Shown here: positions 12,638 through 21,749 of the stretch, piece after piece
Layout: every line of letters begins with the position of its first letter
Numbering within the stretch: the first letter of the stretch is position 1
Virus record (IMG/VR): IMGVR_UViG_3300003621_000027
Span: 5,517 to 27,265 of that record
Direction: 5' to 3' (one strand)
Length of the DNA: 21,749 bases
DNA from: a virus
Translations under genes and position numbers: made by a program
The notes under the pieces: model-generated
Told to the model about the DNA's origin: nothing
Seen by the model: the letters and a program-made list of their open reading frames with translations, nothing else
Databases searched by the model: none

Positions 12638-15600
12638 ATGGCAAGATCTTTAACGATTGGAAATTTAAAAGTAATAGGTTCCACAAAAGGTTCTTCTTTT
12701 ACCGGCTCTTTCTTTAGCGGTTCTTTTATAGGAGATGGAACTGAAATTGAAGGAGTATTATTTGATAATATAGCAGATAAACCAACTTTAGTATCAAGTT
12801 CTATCCAAATAGATCATGACCAAACTACTAATTTTGAAGCAGATGAGCATTTTCTGCAAGAAGATATTACAACTGTAGGAACAGTTACTACCGGAAATGT
12901 AGATGCAATTCTACCTTCTAATACAGTATCAAGTTCTATCCAAGTAGATCATGACCAAACTACTAATTTTGAAGCAGATGAGCATTTTACTCAAGCTGAT
13001 ATAATAGAAGTAGGAATAGTAACAACCGGAAATGTAGATGCAATTCTACCTTCTAACTTAATATCTAGTTCATTACAATTTAATAATTTAACCTCTCCTT
13101 TTACCGGTTCATTTACCGGTTCTTTTGTAGGAGATGGATCTGGTTTAACCGGAGTAGAAGCTGATTCTGTAGCATTTGACGACATAACCAGCAAACCAAC
13201 ATTAGTATCAAGTTCTGCTCAAATAGATCATGATCAAACTACTAATTTTGAAGCAAATGAGCATTTTACTCAAGCTGATATAACAGAAGTAGGAATAGTA
13301 ACAACCGGAAATGTAGATGCAATACTACCATCTAACTTAGTATCTAGTTCATTGCAATTTAACGATTTAACATCTCCTTTTACCGGTTCATTTACCGGTT
13401 CTTTTGTAGGGGATGGTACTAATTTAACCGGAGTAGGATCAGTGACTAGTATAGGAACAACTTCTCCATTGACAGGAGGTCCAATTACAGACACAGGTAC
13501 AATCGGTATAACACAAGCAACAACTTCTACAGACGGATACCTTTCTTCAACTGATTGGAATACTTTTAACGATAAAACAACTTGTATAGGGACTGTAACA
13601 TCGGTAGGAGGAACAGGAACAGTAGCAGGTATTACCTTATCAGGTACAGTTACCGATTCTGGAAATTTAACTTTAGGAGGTACTTTCTCTACTACTACTT
13701 CATCTATATCAGACTTCGATACTGGAGTCGGTACAATCATAGATGGGTGTGGATTTACAACTGGTACTGGAACAGTTACAGGAACAGGTGTCAATAATCA
13801 AATTGCAACATGGAATACAACTTCAGAATTAGATGGAAGTTCAAATTTGACTTTTGATGGGAGTACTTTAAACATAGACGGGGATACGAAAACAAACACT
13901 CTTCTTGTAAATACTTCCTCTCCTATAGCAAATTCAATAATTACATTAAAGAAAGCAAATACTTCTACTGATACAGATGTAGGCTTATTTTACGATATTA
14001 CTAAAGAAAACACAACAGATAGTGTATCAGAAAGTTATGGAGTCGTTAATAGAGTGGATAGTACTACTGATTTCAATAACAGAGGAATAATAACTCAAAA
14101 TAATATAGGTAGAGTTACAGGAGCAGGTAACTTTAGTTACATATATCCTTCCTACAATCAGGCATCTATTAAAGGTGCAGGAACAGTTGGTACCGTTATT
14201 GCAGGTGTAAATGAAACTTCATTAAATAACGCTAGTGGTACTGTTAATTACCTGTGGGGAACACATACAGAAGTGCAATTAACTGCAGGTACAGCAGGAG
14301 AAATTAGCTTACTTAACTTCGATTTTGATCAATCTGCCGGTACTACAATAACAGGAGATTTCCAGTATATTAATATATCAAATGATCAACCTGTATCCAA
14401 TATAGGTGGGACAGCTAGAGCATTGAATATAGAAAGTAACCTACCATCATTCTTCTCAGGAAGTATAGGGATAGGTACCAATACCCCTAATGATAAATTA
14501 GATGTTGCAGGTTTTATAAGAACTACAGGTGACGATGGAGGTTTACTAATAGGTCATGGATCTGGAGGATATGGTATAAAAATAGGTAGAGGAAGGATAG
14601 GAGATGGTCTTGCTTATCTAGATTTTATAGGCTCAGAAGATCCTTCAGGAGGAACATACGACACTAGGTTTTTTAAAAACCCAGGTGATAATGGTAATTT
14701 TGACATTAATCATAATGGAACAGGGCATTTTGCAATTAACGCTACAGGAGGAGGTGACATTTTACTTTTAAATGGCAACGTAGGTATCGGAACGACTAGT
14801 CCTGGGTCTAAACTTGAAGTTGCAGGAGATACTGCTAATGCTTTGTTAACTTTAAAATCTAACAGTGGAGGATCCAATGATTCTTTCATGAGGTTTTATG
14901 ATGAAGCTACTGGTCCTTCTTATTCAGTTGGACTGGATTCTAGTGATTCAAAGTTTAAAATTGCTTTTGATTTTGATGGTGACTCTTTAACAACTGGTAC
15001 AGCATTAGTTATAGATACGGGGGGTAACGTAGGTATCGGAACAGATAGCCCAGACCCTAATTATAAACTTGATGTTGATGGACATATATCAGGAAATCAC
15101 TTACATTTAGGTAACTTTCTTTACTGGGGTTCTTTTACAGGGGGTGTTCAAGGAGCAAGTCTTGAATCTTGGCCTGAGGTTAGGACAGTTTTAAGAAGTG
15201 ACAACCCACGACTAGAATTTTATATGGGGCACTCTCCAGAAGGAGTAGGACTCGCAATGACACTAACATCAACAGGAAAATTAGGTATAGGAGTTAGTAA
15301 CCCTAATGAAAAACTAGAAGTAGATGGTAACATCAAAACTGTTGCAATGACAGCAACAGGAGATATTACAGCTAATGACTTTATAACAACTTCAGACAGA
15401 CGTCTAAAATCAAATATACAAGAGATTACTAATGGTTTAGAAACTCTGAAACAATTTACATCATATGAATATGAAAAAGATAATAGACAAGATGCTGGTT
15501 TTATAGCACAGGAAGTAGCAGAAGCTATCCCATATGCTGTATTTACTAATGATGAAGGAATGTTAAGTATGTCAGATAGACCAGTAATAGCTCATATGCA

Positions 15601-15658
15601 TAAAGCTATACTTGAACTAGAGAAACGTATTAAAAATATAGAAAATCATTTAATCTAA
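12638..15658 (+). CDS. Long tail fibre with C-terminal S74 chaperone domain
   Basis: A 1006-residue fibre protein. Residues 52-266 are modules in the order A-A-B-A-B: a 45-residue unit VSSSIQ.DHDQTTNFEADEH and a GSFTGSFVGDG unit. Next come GSVTSIGTTSPLTGGPIT and TDGYLSSTDWNTFNDK (about 267-313), a motif common in fibres. Four GIGT-P-KLDV-G repeats lie near 610, 715, 798 and 882. Residues 919-1006 begin SDRRLKSNIQEITNGLETLK, followed by AGFIAQEVAEAIP and a short coiled coil (ILELEKRIKNIENHL). This is the Peptidase_S74 intramolecular chaperone. In characterised endosialidase-type members it helps the fibre trimerise and is then cut off just before the Ser of this motif; here that would be before Ser919, leaving a 918-residue fibre. 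No enzyme domain is visible. It is complete, and the chaperone call is firm. Confidence 0.9.
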   Translation: MARSLTIGNLKVIGSTKGSSFTGSFFSGSFIGDGTEIEGVLFDNIADKPTLVSSSIQIDHDQTTNFEADEHFLQEDITTVGTVTTGNVDAILPSNTVSSSIQVDHDQTTNFEADEHFTQADIIEVGIVTTGNVDAILPSNLISSSLQFNNLTSPFTGSFTGSFVGDGSGLTGVEADSVAFDDITSKPTLVSSSAQIDHDQTTNFEANEHFTQADITEVGIVTTGNVDAILPSNLVSSSLQFNDLTSPFTGSFTGSFVGDGTNLTGVGSVTSIGTTSPLTGGPITDTGTIGITQATTSTDGYLSSTDWNTFNDKTTCIGTVTSVGGTGTVAGITLSGTVTDSGNLTLGGTFSTTTSSISDFDTGVGTIIDGCGFTTGTGTVTGTGVNNQIATWNTTSELDGSSNLTFDGSTLNIDGDTKTNTLLVNTSSPIANSIITLKKANTSTDTDVGLFYDITKENTTDSVSESYGVVNRVDSTTDFNNRGIITQNNIGRVTGAGNFSYIYPSYNQASIKGAGTVGTVIAGVNETSLNNASGTVNYLWGTHTEVQLTAGTAGEISLLNFDFDQSAGTTITGDFQYINISNDQPVSNIGGTARALNIESNLPSFFSGSIGIGTNTPNDKLDVAGFIRTTGDDGGLLIGHGSGGYGIKIGRGRIGDGLAYLDFIGSEDPSGGTYDTRFFKNPGDNGNFDINHNGTGHFAINATGGGDILLLNGNVGIGTTSPGSKLEVAGDTANALLTLKSNSGGSNDSFMRFYDEATGPSYSVGLDSSDSKFKIAFDFDGDSLTTGTALVIDTGGNVGIGTDSPDPNYKLDVDGHISGNHLHLGNFLYWGSFTGGVQGASLESWPEVRTVLRSDNPRLEFYMGHSPEGVGLAMTLTSTGKLGIGVSNPNEKLEVDGNIKTVAMTATGDITANDFITTSDRRLKSNIQEITNGLETLKQFTSYEYEKDNRQDAGFIAQEVAEAIPYAVFTNDEGMLSMSDRPVIAHMHKAILELEKRIKNIENHLI
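12791..13435 (+). repeat. A-A-B-A-B direct repeats in long fibre gene
   Basis: Unit A (135 bases, 45 codons) occurs at 12791-12925, 12926-13060 and 13205-13339. Unit B (96 bases) occurs at 13061-13156 and 13340-13435, with a 48-base spacer after the first. The two B units share an identical 38-base run, and the ends of the second and third A units differ at only a few bases over about 78. All units stay in frame. Confidence 0.88.
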
Positions 15659-15672
15659 TATAAAGTAAGAAT

Positions 15673-16548
15673 ATGCCTAAAGTACCTTCTACAGGACCTT
15701 TTAAAATGTTTGATACAGGGTCCACCGAAAATCCTAGATCAACTTCTATAAGAGGGTCTCAAAAATACAATGCTCAAGATAATGTTGAAGGTAATACTAA
15801 ATTTTCTGAAAATATAGCAGATGCTCAAATACCCTTATTCGACCCAGCCTATGCCGGAGATGTAGATACTTTAGATGATATAACAAAATCCTCTCAATGG
15901 AGAGGATACCCACAAGAGGTATCGTGTTATGATTGTAGCTTTGAAGAGACTGGAGATCCAAGTATAAGAAATGTAACCTACGCTTGTTCGGTCTTAGACC
16001 CTCAAGTACTCTATAATATCACATTAGAAGGAACCGTTAGTGCTCCTAATGGATCTGTTACAAAACAAGTAACAGCAGGAACTACAGTTACAGGTACCAT
16101 AACTAATGTTGAAAATCCCCCTGAACAATTTATAGGATGGAGTTTTACACCAGATGGCTCTACAGGTATATTATCAACTAGTACATACTTTACCCGTCTT
16201 GTAGATGAGGATATAACAATATACGCCTTAGTAGGTTTATCTAATGCTGTAGTATTAAATTTCTGTTATTACTCCAATCTTAGTTATAATACAATATGTG
16301 GTAGCTGTGATACAACTAAGAACGTATACTTTAATAGAGTAGACTTTGAAACAAACCCTATCGAGGATTTAATATGGTATGAGAACTTGGCATTAACAGT
16401 AAAATCTGACGAAGGTTACTATAGGAGAAAATCATCAACTAATAACGCAATAGACGACACTATTTATTTTGTATCAGGGTCAAGTTACCCAACCCCAGGT
16501 GCAGCTAATGTCTTCGATACTTGCGGTGAATTTATTTATTGTAGTTAA
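15673..16548 (+). CDS. Probable fibre-associated protein with InlB-like repeat
   Basis: A 291-residue protein. The N-terminus has PSTGPFKMFDTGSTENPRST, loosely like the 'P-x-SGP-I' opening of many phage structural proteins. Residues near 126-187 (SVTKQVTAGTTVTGTITNVE ... FIGWSFTPDG ... DITIYALVG) resemble the Listeria-Bacteroides (InlB B) type repeat, in which a 'GW' core is followed by a V-YA strand. From about 195 there are five cysteines in a module ending DEGYYRRKSSTNNAIDDTIY ... CGEFIYCS. This module is similar in kind to the end of the 1-3042 protein. There are no membrane segments. The gene follows the long fibre by 14 bases and is followed after 2 bases by the next gene. A virion surface role is inferred; the exact function is unknown. 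Confidence 0.65.
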   Translation: MPKVPSTGPFKMFDTGSTENPRSTSIRGSQKYNAQDNVEGNTKFSENIADAQIPLFDPAYAGDVDTLDDITKSSQWRGYPQEVSCYDCSFEETGDPSIRNVTYACSVLDPQVLYNITLEGTVSAPNGSVTKQVTAGTTVTGTITNVENPPEQFIGWSFTPDGSTGILSTSTYFTRLVDEDITIYALVGLSNAVVLNFCYYSNLSYNTICGSCDTTKNVYFNRVDFETNPIEDLIWYENLALTVKSDEGYYRRKSSTNNAIDDTIYFVSGSSYPTPGAANVFDTCGEFIYCS

Positions 16549-16550
16549 TT

Positions 16551-17363
16551 ATGGCAAGATATTTTAGAGTAACGATTGGAACAAAGTTAAATTCACTATT
16601 CTCTATAGTATACGATACTGTAACAGATATAGGAAATTTTAACCACACTGCGTTTATATACAATAGAGAACAAAATACTTACCGTTCTGCTGTAAATGTA
16701 ACATACAATGAATTAACCCAATATAATTATGCAGTTGTACAGACTGATGATGATGTACATAAGTTAAAAATATTAGACGAGAATGGATACTGTGATGGAT
16801 GTCTTAGCCAAGAATTAGGTTCTCCAATCAGCTCAGGAAACCCTGCTTCAACCGCTAATATATTCATCTACAATTATGTATCTAATTCAAGTGGTGCAAG
16901 TTTTCCCACTTACTATGGTATGCCTACAAATTATAGTTGGAATGCAGGGCAATCTGTAACGGACGGTACAGGTACAGGTAAAGTACACGGTGTTACAAAT
17001 AATTCAGACGAGACTGTTTACATAAGGTTAAAAGCTAAAACAACAAGTAGTGGTACATACTACCCGGATGCAGTAGCTGAGATACTTTTCGATGGAAATA
17101 GTGGTAATAGTTACCTATATGTCGGTACTATAGGAGGAACTCAGAATATATCCCCCGGAGGTGGTACTCTTACGAATTCCTCACCACAGTATTCTGGGAA
17201 CACATATTGGACTTTAGGTCCAGGAAAATCGATAGCTTTTGGTATACATCCAGGCTACTATACTGCTAATTCTAGGGTAAGTGATATCATGTACACTCTT
17301 GCTTTCAGTACCAGTGATTCAGTTTTAAGTACTCAAACTGAGATATCTAACTATCAATCATAA
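16551..17363 (+). CDS. Hypothetical virion protein, Gly/Ser/Thr-rich
   Basis: A 270-residue protein that I do not recognise. The first 85 residues (RVTIGTKLNSLFSIVYDTVT ... YAVVQTDDDVHKLKIL) look like a separate small domain. CDGC follows at about 84-87. The rest, about 105-270, is Gly/Ser/Thr/Tyr-rich with alternating hydrophobic strands (ETVYIRLKAKT, AVAEILFDGNSG, GPGKSIAFGIHPGYY), as expected of a beta-sandwich carbohydrate-binding or fibre-tip domain. There are no signal peptide or membrane segments. It starts 2 bases after the previous stop and ends 15 bases before the next gene, so it very likely belongs to the same transcript. Its place between fibre-type genes suggests a virion surface role; that is inference only. 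Confidence 0.6.
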   Translation: MARYFRVTIGTKLNSLFSIVYDTVTDIGNFNHTAFIYNREQNTYRSAVNVTYNELTQYNYAVVQTDDDVHKLKILDENGYCDGCLSQELGSPISSGNPASTANIFIYNYVSNSSGASFPTYYGMPTNYSWNAGQSVTDGTGTGKVHGVTNNSDETVYIRLKAKTTSSGTYYPDAVAEILFDGNSGNSYLYVGTIGGTQNISPGGGTLTNSSPQYSGNTYWTLGPGKSIAFGIHPGYYTANSRVSDIMYTLAFSTSDSVLSTQTEISNYQS

Positions 17364-17378
17364 TTAATGAAATAAGAT

Positions 17379-20300
17379 ATGGCTACAACTACATTTACAT
17401 TTAATAGAAGTGATTTCACAAGTAATTCACCTAGTTGGGGATCAAGCGACGAATATAGCTCAGGTTTGAGATTTAACACAGTTACAAAAACACTTAAATT
17501 AGATAATACAGGTTATGGGAGAGGAGTATTCCAATTATCTATTCCTTCAGGCGTAGATTTTGGTTCAATACATTTTAATACTCCTAACGAGAGTATAGTT
17601 TCTGTCTCTGATGAAATCAATGGTTTATATGAATTATGTAACTATGAAGGTAATATCTTAACAAAGAAATTTACTGAAGATGGTAGTCCAAGTAGTGGTA
17701 CAAAAACATATTATGTAATATATAATGGAGATCCTGAGAGGGTAACTGAGTATTTAAATATTTCAATAGCATTAGCTAAAAATAGAAGCATACCATCTAA
17801 TAATGTATCTATAACTTTAACATATACTTGTTTAGAAAGTGTATTATATGAATATACAACAGGGGTACACACCTACTCGGCATATGATGCTAAAGCAGGT
17901 AGTTCGAGCTTAACGACTAAACTCTACTCTTCTTCATCAATAAATAACTGGGGTAGTGGAACTAGTGTATATAGTAGTCCGTATTTTAACAACCCTGCCT
18001 TACCTTATTTTTATGGATATAATGGAAAAGTATACAGAGTAGGGGACCCATGGTCTCGAAGTTATGGGCTTAAATTTAGGTATGAGACAAGAGTTACTTG
18101 GCATTGGTTTTTAAAAAGGAGAGTTAATTCCAAAAGAGTGACATTAGGTCCTATGGAGACTTTAGATTTAGGTACTAATGGAAATCAACCAACATCTCAT
18201 GCATGTATAGAACCTACAATGAGAAATGTGGGTAAAATCACAACCATTTACAATAACGACTCAGTACTTGATCAACCACAACAGTACCGTTACTACATGG
18301 GGTATGATGCTTCAAATCAAAGAAATTCAAACGATAGTGTTTTCACCACATATTCATTAGCTAAGAAAAAACATTTTCCTATAACAGGTTTAATGCACGT
18401 ATTTAGGAAGTTTACAAGGGGTATTGTAAATGGGTACAATAGAAGCTGGGATGGAGATGTAAATTGGGCTGCAATCGCTGGAGGAACCGGTGTAGCATTA
18501 GTAGCTACATTATTAGGCGATTCTATATTTCAATTTGCAAACTCATTCCTTAGTACCATACCAGGACCATTCCCTGCACTTAATGCAACCGGATTATGGT
18601 CCGCCGCAGGACTATCTACAGCTTTTTTCATAGTCGCAGCAATCTTTATAATATGGAAATTAATTTCATTCTTTTCTCCTAAAACTCACCACTACCAGGA
18701 AAAATGTAAGTCTTTTCTACACCATTTTACTAATACACCTTATATTGGAACAGGAGATACTCTATATAGGGATGATGACTTATCTATTGCAATTGATGGA
18801 TACTACTGTGACGGTGTATACTACTATAGACAACAATCAAACTCAATTAACTCAAAACAACTATCTTCCAGTAATGTATTTGTTGCAGAAGATAAACCAT
18901 TACAGTTTTTATACTCCCTACCTGCAGATTCTCCAACATTAGTTGAAGATTGGCAGAAACTAGTATTACTACCTTACATGTCAGGTAAACCATTACCATA
19001 TTGTGGAGGAAGTACAATCTACTACAGTCAAGCTTTATCACATACTGTAACAGTACAGTGTTGTAATTTAGAAGATTGCAGTGAACCTGTAGAAATAAAC
19101 CTACCATACGGTGCAGTTACAAGCTGTATTAGTCAAGCAGATGCTGATAATCAAGCTATAGCTCAATTCCAAGCAGCTATTGATTATGCCGATGACCACA
19201 GTGTATATAGTGTTACTATAAATGATGAATTTATTGGACAATTAGATGTTAATTTTACTCATGAAATAAAAGAAGAAGACAACCCAACCTCAGTTGCATT
19301 ATTTTACGACAAGAGAGAAACCTCATCAGTTACTACAGGTACTATACTTTATCAAGATATATCAGGCTGTCAAAAAGCATTTCCAGGATACTACAGTACA
19401 CCAGGGGATAATTACCCTAAATTATATTATAAAGTAGAAAATGGTACAATAACTTCTATTTTAACCCAAAGTGCTGCAAGTAGTACAACCACCACCACCG
19501 GAGAGACTATAATAAAAACAGATGAAGAAAGAAGTAGTAACTGGTACTTGAAGGCTAGTTCAAGACAACCTTTAGATACTTTTTTACATAACAAGAATAG
19601 TAGGACATTTGAAGCTATAGATTTACTCACAACATCGGAGTATACTCTTAGTGCCGGCCGTATAATACGTGATACTTATACAGATGGTTCATTTAAGAAG
19701 TACGGTTCTTATAATACTAACGGTATAACATCAACAGCTGTTACAGAACAGGGAACAGGGTGGTATGCACCTATAGTTCCATGGAAACCTGAATCAGAAG
19801 ATTTATTCTTTTACCAAAATTCACTAACACCATTTTCAGGAGGAACAAGAACTACTACTATTGATGGTCTTGGTCTAACACAATTATGTGATGGAAGTAA
19901 TACCGGTAACACGTACTACCATGATGGTTTAAATTCACTACCATCTATAGGGGATAGAATATTTAATACCGATACTGTAAATGATCCAACACCTGATGGA
20001 TATATAAAATATACATCTGATTTATATATGGAAATTAAAAACGGAATAATGGTACAGAGCTATAGTTGTGGATCATCCGGAGAAGATGATACACCACCAG
20101 CCGAACCAAACACATTAATACTTACAAAAACATCTGTTGGTAGCTTGCCAAATACTTATCAAGTTATTCTTGCTGATAATAATAGTTATACTGCCCAAAC
20201 TCTTACATACAGGTGGACATTTGTAGGTCAGGAAGGTGATTTAGAAGCAACAGTATATTATGATGAACCTAACGATAACCCAGATGCAGGTCAGATTGCA

Positions 20301-20501
20301 CGCTCTGAAACATATACTACACCTATATTATCCTCAACATTTAATGAAGGAGATTCTCTTGCTTTCTATATCCCATTTTTAATTACAGGAGGAAATGCAA
20401 CAACTCTAGAATTTGAATTTGAACTAATTACTGCATCAGTAGATACTGTGCCTACTAGTCCAGGCAATAAAGAAACTGTTTTCTACCAGCAACAATATTA
20501 A
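17379..20501 (+). CDS. Large structural protein with two central membrane segments
   Basis: A 1040-residue protein, not assignable to a named family. Residues 1-350 are polar, beta-like and Tyr-rich. A basic stretch (KKKHFPITGLMHVFRKFTR, about 329-347) precedes two hydrophobic segments: about 363-388 (WAAIAGGTGVALVATLLGDS) and about 405-430 (GLWSAAGLSTAFFIVAAIFI). Between them is a short Pro/Gly loop, and after them a basic His/Lys patch (PKTHHYQEKCKSFLHHF). Residues near 560-600 carry CCNLEDC and TSCISQADADNQAIAQFQAA, which recalls DUF5977 of Bacteroidota. Two Cys- or Gly-rich modules follow near 660-697 and 835-898 (SLPSIGDRIF ... YMEIKNGIMVQSYSC). The C-terminal 130 residues form another beta domain. 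Membrane segments are unusual in a fibre; possible roles are membrane contact during DNA entry or a host-surface protein. It is complete. Confidence 0.68.
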   Translation: MATTTFTFNRSDFTSNSPSWGSSDEYSSGLRFNTVTKTLKLDNTGYGRGVFQLSIPSGVDFGSIHFNTPNESIVSVSDEINGLYELCNYEGNILTKKFTEDGSPSSGTKTYYVIYNGDPERVTEYLNISIALAKNRSIPSNNVSITLTYTCLESVLYEYTTGVHTYSAYDAKAGSSSLTTKLYSSSSINNWGSGTSVYSSPYFNNPALPYFYGYNGKVYRVGDPWSRSYGLKFRYETRVTWHWFLKRRVNSKRVTLGPMETLDLGTNGNQPTSHACIEPTMRNVGKITTIYNNDSVLDQPQQYRYYMGYDASNQRNSNDSVFTTYSLAKKKHFPITGLMHVFRKFTRGIVNGYNRSWDGDVNWAAIAGGTGVALVATLLGDSIFQFANSFLSTIPGPFPALNATGLWSAAGLSTAFFIVAAIFIIWKLISFFSPKTHHYQEKCKSFLHHFTNTPYIGTGDTLYRDDDLSIAIDGYYCDGVYYYRQQSNSINSKQLSSSNVFVAEDKPLQFLYSLPADSPTLVEDWQKLVLLPYMSGKPLPYCGGSTIYYSQALSHTVTVQCCNLEDCSEPVEINLPYGAVTSCISQADADNQAIAQFQAAIDYADDHSVYSVTINDEFIGQLDVNFTHEIKEEDNPTSVALFYDKRETSSVTTGTILYQDISGCQKAFPGYYSTPGDNYPKLYYKVENGTITSILTQSAASSTTTTTGETIIKTDEERSSNWYLKASSRQPLDTFLHNKNSRTFEAIDLLTTSEYTLSAGRIIRDTYTDGSFKKYGSYNTNGITSTAVTEQGTGWYAPIVPWKPESEDLFFYQNSLTPFSGGTRTTTIDGLGLTQLCDGSNTGNTYYHDGLNSLPSIGDRIFNTDTVNDPTPDGYIKYTSDLYMEIKNGIMVQSYSCGSSGEDDTPPAEPNTLILTKTSVGSLPNTYQVILADNNSYTAQTLTYRWTFVGQEGDLEATVYYDEPNDNPDAGQIARSETYTTPILSSTFNEGDSLAFYIPFLITGGNATTLEFEFELITASVDTVPTSPGNKETVFYQQQY

Positions 20502-20578: not shown

Positions 20579-21454
20579 ATGACAGTTATATTTCACATTG
20601 AAGGAGGATTAGGTAAACATATAATGGCTACTGCACTCTTAAAAGTAATCAAAAAACACCACCCTAAAGATAAAATACATGTAGTATGTGCATACCCGGA
20701 TGTATTTAAACATAATCCTGCAGCTTTTCAAGTACATCAAAACGGACAGCATGGTGCTTTTTATAAAAATCATATTAAAGGTAGAGAGAGTGAAACTAAA
20801 ATATACTTTGCCGATCCCTACACCCAATCTGATTATATCCTAGAACAGGATCATTTATTTAATATATGGGCAAATCAATGGGGGATGAAATATGAAGGTG
20901 AAACACCTCAAATATACCTCACTAAATCAGAGATAGATTATTTTAAACCATTCTATCAAACTGAAAAACCAATCCTTGTCATACAACCGAATGGTGGTCC
21001 GGCTAATTTAGCATATAATTATTCCTGGACTAGAGATATACCGGAACCGGTCGTCTTAAAAGTAATAGAAGAATTTAAAGCTACTCATACTATAGTTCAT
21101 ATAAAAAGAGAAGATCAAAAAAAATACCCGGATACATTACAAGCCTTGGATGGATTTCGAAGCATAGCTATTTTATTACAACTTTCAGATAAGAGGTTAC
21201 TAATAGATTCTTTTTCACAGCATCTAGCAGCTGCTTTTAATTTACCATCTACAGTATGTTGGGTTACTACCAAACCAGAGGTATTTGGTTATGAAATGCA
21301 TACAAATATTAAAGCAAATGACTTTACTCTTAATGTAGATTTCCCTAATAACCTTTACCAACCATTTGCATTGTCTCAAGATATCACATCATGTCCTTAC
21401 CAAAAATTAGAGGATATATTTGATATAAATAAAATTATTAAATCATTAAAATAA
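20579..21454 (+). CDS. Glycosyltransferase family 9-like protein
   Basis: A 291-residue protein of the ADP-heptose:LPS heptosyltransferase type (GT-B fold, family 9-like). The N-terminus HIEGGLGKHIMATALLKVIK (6-25) matches the family opening 'GGIGDhl-at-l-aLk'. PILVIQPNGG (131-140) is the start of the second Rossmann domain, and DKRLLIDSFSQHLAAAFNLP (204-223) matches the family's donor-site stretch 'IG-DSg-mHlAaAl--P'. It is shorter than the usual 320-360 residues. It would transfer a sugar from a nucleotide donor to an acceptor; the acceptor is unknown. There is no signal peptide, so it is a cytoplasmic enzyme. It follows a 77-base gap and its stop overlaps the next start by one base. Acceptors could be host surface glycan or a virion protein. 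The family call is good; the substrate is open. Confidence 0.8.
   Translation: MTVIFHIEGGLGKHIMATALLKVIKKHHPKDKIHVVCAYPDVFKHNPAAFQVHQNGQHGAFYKNHIKGRESETKIYFADPYTQSDYILEQDHLFNIWANQWGMKYEGETPQIYLTKSEIDYFKPFYQTEKPILVIQPNGGPANLAYNYSWTRDIPEPVVLKVIEEFKATHTIVHIKREDQKKYPDTLQALDGFRSIAILLQLSDKRLLIDSFSQHLAAAFNLPSTVCWVTTKPEVFGYEMHTNIKANDFTLNVDFPNNLYQPFALSQDITSCPYQKLEDIFDINKIIKSLK
21424..21431 (+). promoter_or_regulatory. TATAAATA, candidate late promoter
   Basis: A second exact coding-strand match to the T4 late promoter core, inside the 3' end of the glycosyltransferase gene (Asp-Ile-Asn-Lys codons), 30 bases before the ATG at 21454. It may be due only to AT-rich codons. Confidence 0.22.
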
Positions 21455-21749
21455 TGACTGATCCAGTTTGGACATATAATAGCCTTCCAGTATACTCAAT
21501 AGAAAATATGCCGGAAAATACATACGGATTTATCTACGAAGTAAATCACATACCTACAGGTAAAAAGTACATAGGTAAAAAAGTACTTTATTTTGAAAGA
21601 AATAAGAAATTAGGTAAACGAGAATTACAGGCTTTAAAAGAAGAGAGAAAAGCAAAAGGAATAGGAGGTAGAACACCACTGAAAAAGAAAGTAGTAACTG
21701 AATCGGACTGGAAAACCTACTATGGTTCTCAGAAAGAAATCCTTAAACT
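21454..21749 (+). CDS. GIY-YIG-like nuclease family protein, 3' end missing
   Basis: 98 codons are visible before the window ends. The start ATG shares its A with the stop of the glycosyltransferase gene (TAATG). The protein reads MTDPVWTYNSLPVYSIENMP, then ENTYGFIYEVNHIPTGKKYI and GKKVLYFERNKK. GFIY...KKYIG is the two-strand signature of the GIY-YIG nuclease fold with the first Gly-Ile-Tyr changed to Phe-Ile-Tyr. A Lys/Arg-rich stretch follows, then VTESDWKTYYGSQKEI. I recall this ESDWK-Y-GS arrangement from small putative endonucleases of T4-like and marine phages. Arg residues after the YIG strand could be catalytic; the metal-binding Glu expected further on is not in the window. It could be a free-standing homing endonuclease or a DNA-processing enzyme. 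Activity cannot be judged from the part visible. Confidence 0.7.
   Translation, partial: MTDPVWTYNSLPVYSIENMPENTYGFIYEVNHIPTGKKYIGKKVLYFERNKKLGKRELQALKEERKAKGIGGRTPLKKKVVTESDWKTYYGSQKEILK

Follow-up and report, generated by a model that had tools for sequence, protein, structure and literature searches.

A candidate family of phage tail adhesins carrying a hydrophobic helical insert between two beta-rich bodies

The way in which tailed phages cross envelopes such as that of the Bacteroidota is poorly known, and the search for membrane-active phage parts usually turns to tape-measure or internal proteins. In the tail knob protein gp9 of phi29, the membrane-active L loops are packed into a bundle of helices in the mature tail and, after ejection, lie outside as a hydrophobic helix barrel (PMC6542822). 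The 1,040-aa protein described here resembles gp9 as a probable distal tail protein that is rich in beta structure and has an internal hydrophobic helical insert. The tail of phi29 is short and non-contractile, in contrast to the T4-like contractile baseplate and the exchangeable C-terminal adhesin of the present case, and no homology to gp9 was detected by sequence (Pfam, PHROG, NCBIfam, PDB) or with Foldseek (E<=0.001, PDB and BFVD). The T6SS prePAAR effectors, which work with Eag chaperones, likewise place hydrophobic segments destined for the target membrane on a contractile apparatus (PMC7773334), but our family has no PAAR, toxin domain or common chaperone gene, and its segments are internal. 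Among the stalk domains listed for bacterial fibrillar adhesins is DUF5977 (PMC8286594); a single such module, above the curated cut-off, occurs in our protein, whereas the remainder of the 1,040 residues is unrelated to these adhesins and scans of bacterial genomes with short motifs gave no relative. The T4-like and immuto-type fibres (collar and S74-tipped), both kinds of which are encoded just upstream, share with it the cassette, the strand and the modular exchange of C-termini; in contrast to it, the cassette neighbours lack an internal membrane-type segment, and its residues 1-840 match no fibre family in Pfam and PHROG searches.

The window, i.e., the whole stretch of DNA that was analyzed, comprises 21.7 kb of a 27.7-kb record of an uncultured virus, in which gp25-like and gp6-like baseplate genes are present. 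The gp6-like wedge shares 62% identity with its counterpart in the complete 160-kb isolate Flavobacterium phage immuto, and the gene order runs parallel in both: wedge, small baseplate proteins, collar fibre, spike-like proteins, and then a GIY-YIG gene. In immuto the GIY-YIG gene directly follows the last fibre, whereas in the window four extra ORFs (291 aa, 270 aa, 1,040 aa and 291 aa) lie between the two, in a cassette downstream of the gp25/gp6-like genes. A gp6-type wedge was found in 7 of 12 family-member records searched, at 30-45% identity. The phage is contractile-tailed with a T4-like baseplate, and its host is probably a member of the Bacteroidota.

Table 1. Features of the 1,040-aa protein and of neighbouring genes (window coordinates).
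Feature	Position	Strand	Basis or remark
Tail adhesin-like protein, 1,040 aa, new family	17379..20501	+	conserved part ~residues 1-840
N-terminal beta-rich body, residues 1-336	17379..18386	+	AlphaFold pLDDT mostly 70-95; family identity 37%
Hydrophobic helical insert, residues 337-433	18387..18677	+	AlphaFold helices; hydrophobicity kept 31/31
Hydrophobic segment 1, residues 361-379, weaker, Gly/Ala-rich	18459..18515	+	KD19 peak 1.61
Hydrophobic segment 2, residues 403-436, strong	18585..18686	+	KD19 peak 2.29; predicted helix 413-431
Second conserved beta-rich body, residues 434-840	18678..19898	+	opens with FLHHFTN..PYI and GYYCDGVYYY motifs; many invariant residues; model ordered 435-815
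DUF5977 module, residues 548-600	19020..19178	+	PF19404 E=2.7e-8, 34.7 bits vs cut-off 25
YHDG..PxxGD module, residues 811-898	19809..20072	+	37% identity over 87 aa to L085; phmmer 3e-11
Variable C-terminal region, residues 841-1040	19899..20498	+	pLDDT <50; unrelated binding modules in other members
S74 chaperone-tipped tail fibre	12638..15658	+	PF13884 E=2.2e-12; upstream of 1,040-aa gene
291-aa cassette protein	15673..16548	+	phmmer 1e-8 to L182 neighbour -2, same relative place
Companion gene, 270 aa	16551..17363	+	HMM built from other loci, E=4.9e-12

A sequence-only reading of this DNA had left the protein without a family. That holds for the databases: PHROG and NCBIfam gave no match, no solved relative was found by sequence in the PDB, and the sole Pfam match was DUF5977, which covers 53 of the 1,040 residues and is present in 19 of 28 family members. 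Single members gave a PHROG match to a tape-measure family (6.6e-5) and NCBIfam matches to parasite surface antigens; both were read as noise from the hydrophobic segments. A family could nevertheless be built from contigs of uncultured viruses. The scan of viral contigs with the whole protein returned no homologue, a failure of sensitivity, as a query restricted to the residues around the insert later retrieved nine full homologues in IMG/VR (36-41% identity); the lack of a match between the window protein alone and 37 records is weak evidence owing to the same low sensitivity of the query. A profile built from the nine homologues gave 40 loci on contigs of up to 322 kb, and after merging of duplicates the aligned set held 30 members plus the window protein (31 in total, in 14 groups below 50% identity). 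All 30 come from uncultured-virus contigs. A tblastn search of isolated phages with three members found no homologue, and only weak matches came from the single DUF5977 module, the YHDG module and the insert region. The plasmids searched held no relative, nor did 84,980 bacterial and archaeal genomes in two pattern scans, whose short exact or degenerate motifs distant relatives could escape; on the latter result, within the reach of such motifs, a host or prophage origin of the family was set aside. The 1,040-aa protein thus appears, as judged from sequence, to be a member of an undescribed family of phage attachment proteins.

The sequence-only reading had also noted two hydrophobic segments in the middle of an otherwise polar, beta-rich protein. 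In a Kyte-Doolittle scan over 19 residues both are seen, segment 1 at about 361-384 (peak 1.61, V361-L379) and segment 2 at 403-436 (peak 2.29 near A415), and 1.60 is the highest value in any other ORF of the window, reached by one short stretch in ORF 15673-16548. The loop between the segments contains no K or R and one D or E. Glycine-zipper enrichment was considered for segment 1 and dropped, the count being close to that of shuffled sequences (8/17 vs 7.5 expected). Since the maxima in shuffles of the whole protein averaged 1.50, with 2.62 as the 99.9th percentile, a peak of 2.29 in a protein of this length is unusual and, on a single sequence, not decisive. Chance hydrophobicity, which the window sequence alone would allow, is excluded by conservation in the family.

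In all 31 members the global hydropathy maximum falls in the insert (range 1.93-3.71), and the 19-residue core of segment 2 carries 0-1 charges in every one of them. Mean pairwise identity is 17% within the insert, vs 37% before and 39% after it. That hydrophobicity is kept while sequence is lost points to a segment that is either of membrane type or fully buried. The connecting loop has 7 charged residues per 100, vs 21 and 30 in the flanks. The basic clusters that had been reported on both outer sides are present in the window protein, VFRKFTRGIVNGYNR before the segments and SPKTHHYQEKCK after them; in the family as a whole the outer flanks carry charges, with no specific excess of basic residues on the N-terminal side (K+R 9.8, D+E 11.7 per 100), so that basic residues on both flanks are a trait of the window member. 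Segment 1 is the weaker of the two family-wide: it scores 1.17-2.45 in representatives and below 1.5 in several, which is marginal for a membrane helix, and it could be re-entrant instead of spanning. In one branch (L210:7973-8668, residues ~330-561, and also L211, L214, L216 and L219) the insert reaches about 230-240 residues, among them an unbroken run of 100-123 without any charge, and contains a segment of KD 3.7. In this it is closer to a tape-measure or pore segment than to a plain hairpin.

The chief rival to membrane entry is that the insert is a structural element only, its helices forming in a trimer or hexamer a permanently buried bundle that joins the two bodies without membrane contact. 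We regard this as unlikely, though still deserving serious weight. Neighbours of the protein in the cassette include fibres, which as a rule are trimers, and the AlphaFold models are of the monomer only; moreover, L085, a relative that lacks the segment, still has an adhesin at the corresponding place. Against such a bundle, the hydrophobic cores are uniform over 30-44 residues, up to KD 3.71, and their low helical moment (0.01-0.22) is not that of an ordinary amphipathic coiled coil. More than 17% identity would be expected of a conserved bundle, and the insert varies in length from about 105 to 240 residues. Nor does any neighbouring cassette protein use such a device: an internal segment of at least 1.9 was found in 0 of 127 distinct neighbouring proteins of at least 250 aa. 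Such segments are unusual for a virion fibre, as the sequence-only reading had remarked.

AlphaFold models of the monomers were obtained for two members, the window protein (28 sequences) and L196, and bear out the beta-rich character. The window model has ordered beta-rich bodies at 1-340 and 435-815 and no confident structure past 816; the insert is modelled as helices at 337-344, 346-353, 359-367, 373-379, 382-393 and 413-431, with pLDDT below 50 over 359-417. The L196 model (mean pLDDT 79.5) has the same layout, with 375-440 as almost the sole stretch of low confidence. Burial of both segments in a folded core, named beforehand as the outcome that would speak against a membrane role, is not what these two monomer models show; in both, the insert is a low-confidence helical part outside the two ordered bodies. 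Foldseek searches returned no match at E<=0.001 for the window model (PDB and BFVD) or the L196 model (PDB), and the best weak matches, mostly to beta-sandwich or sugar-binding folds, were set aside as all lie above 1e-3.

Family conservation ends near residue 840. Beyond this point the members carry different binding modules, often after Thr-Pro-rich stretches: Laminin_G_3 (L195, L209), Fib_succ_major (L186, L189), a DUF5122 propeller (L186), SprB (L171) and Cadherin (L208), with lectin and FISUMP types among them. With its exchanged C-terminal binding modules the 1,040-aa protein looks like a receptor-binding tail protein. In phages that differ widely, the family genes have baseplate and adhesin genes as neighbours, and we infer strongly that the protein is located in the virion. 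For compact cassettes we dropped the notion that it is the only adhesin of the phage, because an S74 fibre is encoded elsewhere in at least one of these records. The variable C-terminus, together with the precedent of hydrophobic segments borne by a contractile machine for a target membrane (PMC7773334), might be taken to mean that the insert carries part of the protein across the host envelope in the manner of prePAAR effectors, the C-terminus being the delivered effector. This we consider very improbable: the C-terminal modules identified are binding modules, with no toxin or enzyme domain above the curated cut-off in Pfam, the insert is internal and not N-terminal, and searches of Pfam, PHROG and NCBIfam gave no match to PAAR, Rhs or VgrG.

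On these grounds we put forward, tentatively and as something close to an even call, that the protein is a virion tail or baseplate adhesin whose insert enters a membrane of the host envelope during infection. The two beta-rich bodies (residues 1-840) would hold the protein on the tail, and the exchangeable C-terminus would bind the cell surface. The helical hydrophobic hairpin (337-433) between the bodies would presumably be packed away in the free virion, within the core of an oligomer or on a partner; receptor binding would release it to enter the envelope membrane, where it could anchor the tail or open a path for the tube or the DNA. The gp9 loop of phi29, though unrelated, is a precedent for a device of this kind. 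Insertion at entry, one of the two roles that had been suggested from the sequence, is the best of the readings compared here, and we hold membrane entry with only moderate firmness. To our knowledge, an adhesin-borne hairpin that enters the envelope after binding is an entry step not described for T4-like tails. Contrary to membrane entry from the virion, a segment of such strong hydrophobicity, synthesized in the cytoplasm, should draw membrane targeting, and no chaperone gene common to all members was found. Small genes of 71-79 aa lie directly 3' of the adhesin in L167 (10658-10873), L170 (10678-10893), L197 (11387-11626) and L207 (10987-11217); they apparently belong to different families and are possible candidates for chaperones that shield the insert.

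The expected encounter with membrane-targeting factors would fit better with the other suggested role, in which the infected cell makes the protein and displays it in its membrane or anchors it there, for example to block superinfection or keep tail assembly at the membrane, and it is not an entry part of the virion. Charged flanks around a two-segment hairpin whose loop is nearly free of charge also have the look of a cytoplasmic-side membrane anchor. However, the hydropathy scan revealed no N-terminal hydrophobic signal segment, the gene lies among baseplate and adhesin genes, and the positive-inside rule would keep both bodies in the cytoplasm, where exchangeable ligand-binding C-termini make no sense. 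We therefore judge display in the host membrane improbable and retain envelope insertion at entry as the preferred reading. Whether these proteins form a widespread, undescribed class of contractile-phage adhesins in which one protein both recognizes the surface and inserts into the membrane is more doubtful; we hold it possible. If so, a family of exchangeable receptor-binding proteins with a built-in insert would place membrane entry on the adhesin, account for the failure of fibre annotation to pick up such proteins, and make uncultured aquatic phages a clear test case.

The family gene is accessory. With its profile, neither the complete 160-kb genome of immuto nor the 40.7-kb contig of L085 yielded a member, and further large records from the wider group (162, 173, 168 and 131 kb) gave none either. 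L085 is the closest relative found (95% identity in the GIY-YIG protein), and at the corresponding place (L085:2909-5485) it encodes a different adhesin of 858 aa, with many DUF5122 propeller repeats and no hydrophobic segment, that shares with the window protein only the 87-residue YHDG module; the place therefore looks like an adhesin swap site. Given its absence from immuto and L085, the family protein cannot be a universal entry part, and as the trait is dispensable in sister phages, any membrane action would presumably serve particular hosts or receptors. The identities of the family protein do not parallel those of the wedge: relative to the window, the L167 group has about 41-43% in the adhesin-family protein and about 30% in the wedge, whereas L205 has 33% and 45%, respectively. 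This comparison of sequences suggests transfer of the family gene between phage lineages.

At many family loci a second gene with a conserved N-terminal module adjoins the family member, and the companion at 16551-17363 shares this module with the genes next to family members in other phages. It is of the SGPFNIYY type, and in other phages the companions have total lengths of about 265 to 1,650 aa. The companion is best regarded as a putative, undescribed modular partner of the adhesin family. The window and L182 have in common the order fibre, 291-aa-like protein, companion, family member. At about seven loci (L194, L196, L205, L210, L211, L214 and L216) the order starts with small baseplate proteins, companion and family member, followed by a gene of about 104 aa, a GIY-YIG-like gene and a primase-like gene, the last two named by their resemblance to immuto genes. 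A position at the end of the fibre cassette, as described for the window, thus recurs at these loci and does not extend to all members.

Between the adhesin and the GIY-YIG gene of the window lies a gene on the plus strand (20579-21454) for a 291-aa protein whose sole match is phrog_8954, of unknown function. It is 96.6% identical in L085 and 74-76% identical in L093-L095 and L099, and the product looks like a putative glycosyltransferase. The gene that follows (21454-21747, plus strand), like L003:1071-1556, is a GIY-YIG gene of the SegE type (PF19835), which is labelled NAD synthetase in immuto and in phrog_447, a probable case of spreading misannotation.
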